10,889 nt of DNA from Planctomycetota bacterium (GTDB lineage Bacteria; Planctomycetota; MHYJ01; JACQXL01; JACQZI01). The stretch is from the NCBI GenBank assembly GCA_016207825.1, contig JACQZI010000020.1, positions 1 through 10,889 of the forward strand. Reading direction: 5' to 3'. Below are positions 9,416 through 10,740 of this stretch, piece after piece. The translations under genes were made by a program, and so were the position numbers. How positions within the stretch are numbered: position 1 is the stretch's first letter; every line of letters starts with the position of its first letter. The notes beneath the pieces are model-generated. The model saw only the letters and a list, made by a program, of their open reading frames with translations. It searched no databases and was not told the origin of the DNA.

Positions 9416-10342
9416 GTGATTAGGTTTTTCCTGGTTACTTGTTTAGTCGCGGCGTTGGGTTGTGCTTCCCAGCCGTACCGGGAAAGCATACCCGTTCCGC
9501 CTCCGAGCCGTTTTAATTATGTCCATAAACCCTCGACTGAATGCAGTCCGGTGTGTATCCAGCTTAGCCGGATACAGAAACTTGAACATCCATTAGACCG
9601 GGTAAAGGAATTATTAAAAGTTGCAGAGATGGAAAGGCTTTCCTGTCATGACCAGTTGTATTTGATAGAGGTAGCTTTGCCTATTGAGATGTTCAGTGCG
9701 GAGAAGGTTTTTACGAAGCTTGCCGGATATAAATATTTGTGTTATTCGGTGCGGGATGCTCTGCTTAATTATGCGGAACGACTTAATGTGCACGAACGCA
9801 AACAACTCATCCAATTGTTACAGGAAAACAAAGGTGTGCCGGACAGTTTGACGCCTATGGAAAAACTCTGGACGGAGATTTTCTCCGAGGATAATTATAC
9901 GATACTGGGCCTTTATAAAGAGGGCTTTAAGGAAGAGGACAACCTGGTTATTTTATATCTCAATAAAACCGCGCCTGTCCACAAAAGGGTCGATGTTTTA
10001 GCAAGGTGGCGTAAATCTTGGGATAAGGTGACGCCTTGGCATAAAATAATCACGGAGGATTTATCCATGGATGCAACTTCTCTTTTTATACCGCTGGCTT
10101 TCGGTTCGGAAGTGCCGCAACCCTTTAAGAGTTCTTACAGCAAATATTGGATCGGCATCTCTAAAGACACGGTTCTTTCGGATGAAGAAATATCTTTGCT
10201 TATCAGGCTGAAAACCCTGTGCATATATTACCTTAACCGCAGGCTAGCGAGAGAGTTGACAGAAGCAGAAGTGGTAAAGGTGATGGGTTTTTTAAGCGAA
10301 GGGAAGTCCCCGGATGAAATCGCCAAGGGGCTTGAAAAGTAA
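9416..10342 (+). CDS. Probable lipoprotein of unknown function
   Basis: The 308-residue product starts at GTG 9416. The ATG at 9414 is followed immediately by TGA and cannot serve, and AGGAGG at 9401-9406 (inside the end of the BatA-like gene) is nine bases from the GTG. The N-terminus, IRFFLVTCLVAALGC, is a short hydrophobic signal ending at Cys16. The box AALGC has Ala instead of the preferred Leu at -3, so lipidation is likely but not certain. After a proline-rich linker (IPVPPPSR) the rest is mostly helical and charged, with no domain that I recognise. The C-terminus (LTEAEVVKVMGFLSEGKSPDEIAKGLEK) looks like a small helical bundle. Tight coupling to the BatA-like gene suggests the two act together at the envelope. 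Confidence 0.8.
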   Translation: MIRFFLVTCLVAALGCASQPYRESIPVPPPSRFNYVHKPSTECSPVCIQLSRIQKLEHPLDRVKELLKVAEMERLSCHDQLYLIEVALPIEMFSAEKVFTKLAGYKYLCYSVRDALLNYAERLNVHERKQLIQLLQENKGVPDSLTPMEKLWTEIFSEDNYTILGLYKEGFKEEDNLVILYLNKTAPVHKRVDVLARWRKSWDKVTPWHKIITEDLSMDATSLFIPLAFGSEVPQPFKSSYSKYWIGISKDTVLSDEEISLLIRLKTLCIYYLNRRLARELTEAEVVKVMGFLSEGKSPDEIAKGLEK

Positions 10343-10433
10343 AGCATACAGTTAATTATCCATCCCGTTAGATTACTCCTTTATTTCAAGGGGAAACATC
10401 AATAAAAATATTTGATAATAAGCGATATTTGGC

Positions 10434-10462
10434 TTGACAACAACAGGCGTAGTTTATATGAT
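10434..10462 (+). promoter_or_regulatory. Near-consensus promoter upstream of the structured RNA
   Basis: TTGACA (10434-10439), 17 bases, TATGAT (10457-10462): 11 of 12 consensus positions with ideal spacing. The predicted start is near 10469. No plausible protein-coding gene follows within 250 bases, which points to an RNA product. The 91 bases between the preceding stop codon and this promoter are AT-rich and show nothing else. Confidence 0.8.
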
Positions 10463-10468
10463 ACGGCT

Positions 10469-10616
10469 AAGTTAAAAGGTAAAGAATTCTGTCCGCTATT
10501 CTATTGCTTCTCAGCAGTAGGCTCTGCCCTTTGGGGCAGGGGCTGCGATGCTGGACTGCTGGGAAGTCTTAGCGGACAGAAAGTAGAAACCAGTAAGTAG
10601 TTCCTTGCCCTTTTTT
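10469..10616 (+). ncRNA. Candidate rod-shaped structured RNA (unassigned; 6S-like architecture possible)
   Basis: Three nested helices form one long rod. The outer 12 bp are perfect: 10487-10498 with 10570-10581 (TTCTGTCCGCTA / TAGCGGACAGAA). The middle 12 bp contain a single G-U: 10507-10518 with 10555-10566 (CTTCTCAGCAGT / ACTGCTGGGAAG). The apical 8 bp, also with one G-U, are 10522-10529 with 10534-10541 around TTTG. Between outer and middle helices lies an asymmetric internal loop (TTCTATTG opposite TCT); a 13-base bulge (10542-10554) follows the apical hairpin. A near-consensus promoter predicts the 5' end near 10469, and a run of six T (10611-10616) offers a 3' end, giving about 148 nt. 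The helix-bubble-helix plan and length recall 6S RNA, but the bubble is small and no sequence motif confirms it; the SRP RNA tetraloop motif and tmRNA features are absent. An inverted-repeat mobile relic is the main alternative. There is no acceptable ORF across it. Confidence 0.55.
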
Positions 10617-10620
10617 ATTT

Positions 10621-10641
10621 ATCCCGACAGGGCGTCGGGGT
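10621..10641. repeat. GC-rich inverted repeat between the RNA and the next promoter
   Basis: ATCCCGAC (10621-10628) pairs with GTCGGGGT (10634-10641), 8 bp including one G-T, around AGGGC. No T tract follows on either strand. The left arm resembles ATCCCGATAGG at 7501-7511, so both may be remnants of one dispersed palindromic family. Confidence 0.45.
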
Positions 10642-10684: not shown

Positions 10685-10713
10685 TTGACAAAGAGATTAA
10701 TAAAAGTTATAGT
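10685..10713 (+). promoter_or_regulatory. Near-consensus promoter of the secreted-protein gene
   Basis: TTGACA (10685-10690), 17 bases, TATAGT (10708-10713), again 11 of 12 consensus positions. The start is expected near 10720, giving a leader of about 20 bases that holds AAGGAGG (10728-10734), six bases from the ATG at 10741. This is the strongest expression signal of any protein gene in the window. Confidence 0.8.
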
Positions 10714-10740
10714 ATCAAACAATAAATAAGGAGGATTGTT

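Follow-up and report, generated by a model that had tools for sequence, protein, structure and literature searches.

The RNA locus

The stretch of DNA analyzed here, referred to as the window, comprises 10,889 nucleotides and constitutes contig C20 of the genome of a groundwater planctomycete (Planctomycetota; 2.89 Mb, 97.6% complete). Close to its 3' end, a gene for a rod-shaped RNA is followed by the first codons of a He_PIG surface-protein gene, and the contig stops 273 bases past the RNA (Table 1). Further upstream, a BatA-type gene precedes an ORF coding for a lipoprotein-like protein of 308 aa without Pfam match (9416-10342), and a degenerate 22-bp tandem array with units like TTTGTAAGnGGnnCCCCATACC, readable in at least 8 registers, lies at 424-643, just after a gene with an FGE-sulfatase domain. 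No tRNA or tmRNA was found in the window.

The earlier note on this DNA had described two 12-bp helices and an 8-bp apical hairpin nested in one rod behind TTGACA-17-TATGAT, and all of these elements were indeed present. The promoter matches the consensus at 11 of 12 positions (TTGACA, 10434-10439; TATGAT, 10457-10462). From its 5' end, the RNA consists of a leader with a conserved AAAG, the outer helix P1 (12 bp), an asymmetric internal loop (about 10 nt in the 5' strand, 2 to 3 nt in the 3' strand), the helix P2, the apical hairpin P3 (8 bp, 10522-10529 with 10534-10541), a GCUGG junction, a linker, and a terminator-like tail, the rod itself being only about 95 nt long. The 97-nt core (10486-10582) folds with -56.8 kcal/mol, compared to -32.1 ± 3.4 kcal/mol for dinucleotide shuffles (z = -7.35; reached in 0 of 200 shuffles), and the fold of the 148-nt transcript has a z score of -5.19. 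The only ORF covering the RNA (10412-10600, 62 aa) is not credible, as the earlier note had judged, since the copies described below are separated by indels whose lengths are not divisible by three and their changes compensate one another.

Table 1. Features at the RNA locus of the window (contig C20)
Feature	Position	Strand	Basis or remark
Sigma-70-type promoter TTGACA-17-TATGAT	10434..10462	+	Sequence; matched by promoters at the other five copies
Structured RNA	10468..10616	+	Extent of the match to covariance model R1, 145.7 bits
P1 outer helix, 5' strand	10487..10498	+	Fold and covariation; both-side changes in 8 of 13 consensus pairs, 97% of cells paired
P1 outer helix, 3' strand	10570..10581	+	Fold and covariation
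P2 hypervariable helix, 5' strand	10506..10518	+	All 10 consensus pairs covary; 98% of cells paired; mean identity only 40%
P2 hypervariable helix, 3' strand	10555..10567	+	Covariation and identity among copies
P3 conserved apical hairpin CUCUGCCC-UUUG-GGGCAGGG	10522..10541	+	Fold and alignment of copies
Conserved junction motif GCUGG	10550..10554	+	Alignment; could pair with CCAGU at 10590-10594
Terminator-like tail GUAAG...CUUGC-CCUUUUUU, stem and then T run	10593..10616	+	Fold and alignment; kept in 5 of 6 copies
Small CCCGAC...GTCGGG palindrome, 3' of the T run	10623..10639	+	In copies C20 and C7; related one in C38
Separate promoter TTGACA-17-TATAGT of the downstream gene	10685..10713	+	Sequence
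He_PIG surface-protein gene start (MQKNNRAVNIGAFG...), truncated by the contig end	10740..10889	+	100% identity to the C39 paralog over the 49 aa present

Six diverged copies with preserved pairing

Searching the genome of the window at the DNA level identified five more copies of the RNA, with 74 to 87% identity. The copies are named by contig, namely, C20 (window), C7, C18, C27, C38, and C39. The covariance model built from all six (R1) scored 145 to 165 bits on each and found no further copies in the genome. Like the window, the C7, C18, and C39 contigs end close to their copies, as expected of repeats in an assembly. Kept across the six are the promoter, the apical hairpin, the GCUGG motif at the junction, and a 3' tail resembling a terminator. 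At the other five copies the promoter matches the consensus at 12, 11, 11, 11, and 9 of 12 positions, and in every case the -10 hexamer lies 1 to 5 nt ahead of the model start, with nearly equal spacing. Over the copies, the consensus of the hairpin reads CUCUGCCC-UUUG-GGGCRGGG and that of the tail CCAGC-AAG...CUUGC-CC-U6. The terminator stem has only 5 bp and shows no covariation, and in the C38 copy the T run is pushed away by inserted hairpins. A CCCGAC-n-GTCGGG palindrome stands beside the RNA tail in three of the six copies (window, 10623-10639; L010, 4713-4728; L007, 141-157), and the one in C38 seems to provide the terminator hairpin ahead of CCCTTTTTT.

In a plain MAFFT alignment of the six copies, 93% of the cells were paired and 19 pairs had changed on both sides, compared to 8.5 ± 2.1 pairs in shuffles, none of which (0 of 500) reached 19. 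Sliding the partners by 1 to 3 columns reduced pairing to 40 to 49% and the pairs with both-side changes to 1 to 4. After realignment to the model, a procedure that leans towards structure, 97% of the cells were paired. The two long helices, P1 and P2, swap letters yet remain paired, while the junction and the tail are kept and the pairs of P3 are mostly invariant. Covariation, which the earlier note had proposed to look for in related genomes, was thus seen in P1 and P2 among six copies of a single genome. Pairing of GCUGG with CCAGC was preserved in 96.7% of the cells, two G-U variants among them; as these columns hardly vary, however, they provide no proof of covariation. A GAC-GCUG-GUC mini-hairpin at the junction was rejected, being absent from some copies. 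G-U cells outnumbered A-C cells by 21 to 1, which indicates that selection acts on the plus-strand molecule and also argues against a DNA cruciform; the apparent mirror match on the minus strand reached only 18 to 22 bits, versus 145 on the plus strand. Although the covariation set is limited to six paralogs from one genome, these data make it almost certain that the locus encodes a real structured RNA that acts as a working molecule.

Relation to known RNA families

The Rfam search that had likewise been suggested gave no family matching the RNA region of the window at E ≤ 5 (Rfam 15); two Rfam matches listed elsewhere in the window are chance hits. When R1 was searched against relatives, the class, and the phylum (about 390 Planctomycetota genomes), it was found in its own genome only, in a search that is lossy and in which the only same-genus genome is 56% complete. 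Weak R1 matches in relatives (E values of 0.4 to 7) were taken as chance. The lossiness of whole-genome RNA searches is illustrated by the genome's true 6S RNA, which was missed, and the absence of R1 elsewhere thus constitutes only moderate evidence of lineage restriction. BLAST detected no homologs in phages and plasmids, one stringent pattern run over the genomes of 84,980 species gave no match, and viral contigs yielded covariance model scores of 17 bits only, which is chance level. Literature searches over titles and abstracts turned up no description of such an RNA in planctomycetes. The best reading of these searches is that the RNA family would be lineage restricted.

The earlier note had allowed for either a divergent 6S RNA or a new small-RNA family. 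A 6S identity (RF00013), with the RNA mimicking an open promoter, might be suggested by the single long rod with an apical stem, the promoter of its own, and the probably free-standing arrangement, as well as by the first whole-genome search, which found no 6S RNA in this genome. However, in relatives of the same order, 6S RNA lies between an MshEN-type gene and DUF2520/aroK (gene names inferred from sequences), and the corresponding gap in the window's genome (G000:C31), located through its ortholog of the DUF2520-like protein, holds a true 6S RNA that scored 46.7 bits against a cut-off of 46.4. This RNA (L073, 3362-3554, minus strand), missed by the fast genome search and above the Rfam cut-off on the locus scan, is not matched by R1. 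In addition, the RNA described here is shorter than 6S RNA, exists in six copies, and harbors a small internal loop instead of the large central bubble. The 6S proposal thus retains next to no probability, while that of an unassigned family is supported by the lack of an Rfam match and by the compensatory changes.

Genomic context and mosaic history of the copies

Five of the six copies are found just upstream of He_PIG/RHS-repeat surface-protein loci. The C20, C7, and C38 copies directly precede He_PIG/RHS-type genes, and in C18 and C39 a CheY-like receiver gene stands between the RNA and the He_PIG surface-protein gene, an order of genes behind the RNA seen at L011 (2-1505) and L008 (6079 onward). 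The C27 copy lies upstream of an unrelated small exported protein gene; a look for a defence or phage context there showed nothing of note. One giant gene (L010, 4823-10501, and L182) has an open frame of about 2769 codons with He_PIG, Laminin_G_3, TIG, DUF6531, and RHS repeats. All six RNAs are located about 124 to 250 nt upstream of a co-directional gene. As the earlier note had observed for the window, where a promoter-like site precedes the ATG at 10740, a promoter with 11 of 12 matches stands between RNA and gene in C20, C7, and C38; in the two receiver-linked copies, nothing better than 8 to 9 of 12 was found there. Paralogous surface-protein genes at C25, C5, C23, and C29 lack the RNA in their upstream regions and, judged by eye, have promoter-like sites of their own. 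Gene and RNA are thus associated but separable. The nearest named relative by CysS, the Planctomycetota MAG Candidatus Brocadiia bacterium DeMMO3_52 (82%), has neither the RNA nor the RHS gene after its cysS, implying either gain of the unit in one lineage or its loss from the other.

Homology over all copies extends from near -45 to the terminator; the RNA is hence dispersed as a promoter-to-terminator module. Outside this module the upstream flanks of the six copies are unrelated, and the downstream flanks are alike only in C20/C7 (93 to 98%) and C18/C39 (87 to 94%). Despite these similar downstream flanks, P2 is only 35% identical between C20 and C7 and 15% between C18 and C39. Conversely, P1 and P2 are identical in C18 and C38, whose flanks and promoters differ. 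Either the RNAs are old and duplication or conversion has recently affected their flanks, or the helices themselves were replaced or diversified; the cautious reading would be the first. In a bolder and unlikely reading, the RNA family would be lineage specific and one of its helices would be kept hypervariable between copies of the same genome, with pairing kept and letters replaced faster than in the flanking DNA. The RNA would then mark the identity of co-duplicated RHS-type surface-protein loci or form a module of these loci that is protected from recombination. A related reading would make the variable helices locus-specific tags, with the copies kept different (or recombining) and each RNA serving its own locus. 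The contrast between P2 and the downstream flanks, together with the exact sharing of both helices by C18 and C38 amid unrelated flanks, would fit such tags, but the same mosaic results if the RNAs diverged long ago and the downstream repeats were duplicated or underwent gene conversion only recently, and a helix type common to two loci fits them poorly, so that we consider this reading highly improbable.

Leader, mobile repeat, or free-standing RNA

In antitermination leader RNAs of the EAR, put, and LoaP type, a structured RNA separates a promoter from long loci for exported or surface products. The RNA described here could similarly be a cis-acting leader, that is, an attenuator or a processive-antitermination RNA that controls whether transcription passes the terminator and enters the long surface-protein gene. 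This would account for the placement ahead of co-directional genes, five of them He_PIG/RHS genes or their receiver, and for the terminator-like tail between RNA and gene, whose stem the GCUGG-CCAGC pairing would overlap. Here, however, the terminator directly follows the RNA and the downstream gene has a separate promoter in three copies, the same kind of promoter on which the sister genes lacking the RNA seem to rely alone. Moreover, a strong, mutually exclusive antiterminator helix was not apparent, and the gene behind the C27 copy is unrelated. A cis leader is possible but, taken together, doubtful. REP and MITE repeats occur as several intergenic copies of an imperfect palindrome, and a non-autonomous mobile element of this type, folding by chance, would explain the discrete module in six unrelated upstream contexts, its absence from the syntenic cysS site of the relative, and the small palindrome inserted beside the tail in three copies. 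Such repeats would be near-identical and free of strand-specific RNA selection, whereas the copies studied here are only six, highly diverged, and compensated at the level of single base pairs. Their G-U pairs are strand specific, and promoter and tail are preserved; an unsystematic look at the flank alignment showed no common terminal repeat or target duplication. A mobile palindrome is thus very unlikely, and the many identical copies that the earlier note had named as the mark of a mobile repeat were not found, strongly diverged helices with preserved pairing being the opposite of a recent one.

We therefore favor a trans-acting or protein-binding RNA made from its own transcription unit, and we propose, with a probability of roughly 0.6, that the window RNA belongs to a set of six paralogs, each encoding a free-standing structured noncoding RNA of about 150 nt. 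That the transcript is free-standing, as the earlier note had judged, rather than a leader, is probable from the promoter and 3' tail kept in the copies, the downstream promoters of three copies, and the paralogous genes lacking the RNA. Transcription of each copy would start at a sigma-70-type promoter of its own and most likely stop at its own intrinsic terminator. The helices P1 and P2 would then be a scaffold, free to vary in letters while paired, presenting the conserved apical hairpin, GCUGG junction, and 3' tail as the surfaces that probably contact a protein or RNA partner. Paralogous small RNAs with their own promoters within one genome are known from multi-copy bacterial sRNA families; unlike these, the RNA described here belongs to no recognized family, and neither seed complementarity nor a link to Hfq or CsrA was found. 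Pairing to the neighboring translation starts, scored for the C20, C7, C18, C38, and C39 copies, gave no consistent signal, with 2 of 15 tests at p 0.02 to 0.04, as chance allows. CsrA was not found in the genome and the only Hfq-like match was under the cut-off, and an sRNA dependent on either is not supported on these grounds. More speculatively, the RNA may act on the adjacent He_PIG/RHS-repeat loci that accompany five of its six copies, and we only tentatively link it to the regulation of surface proteins.

A structured RNA with clean compensatory evolution and no Rfam match represents a real new family. Its attachment to giant RHS-repeat surface genes may offer a concrete way into the regulation or shuffling of such loci, and the independence of the helix sequences from their flanks is an uncommon feature that can be tested.
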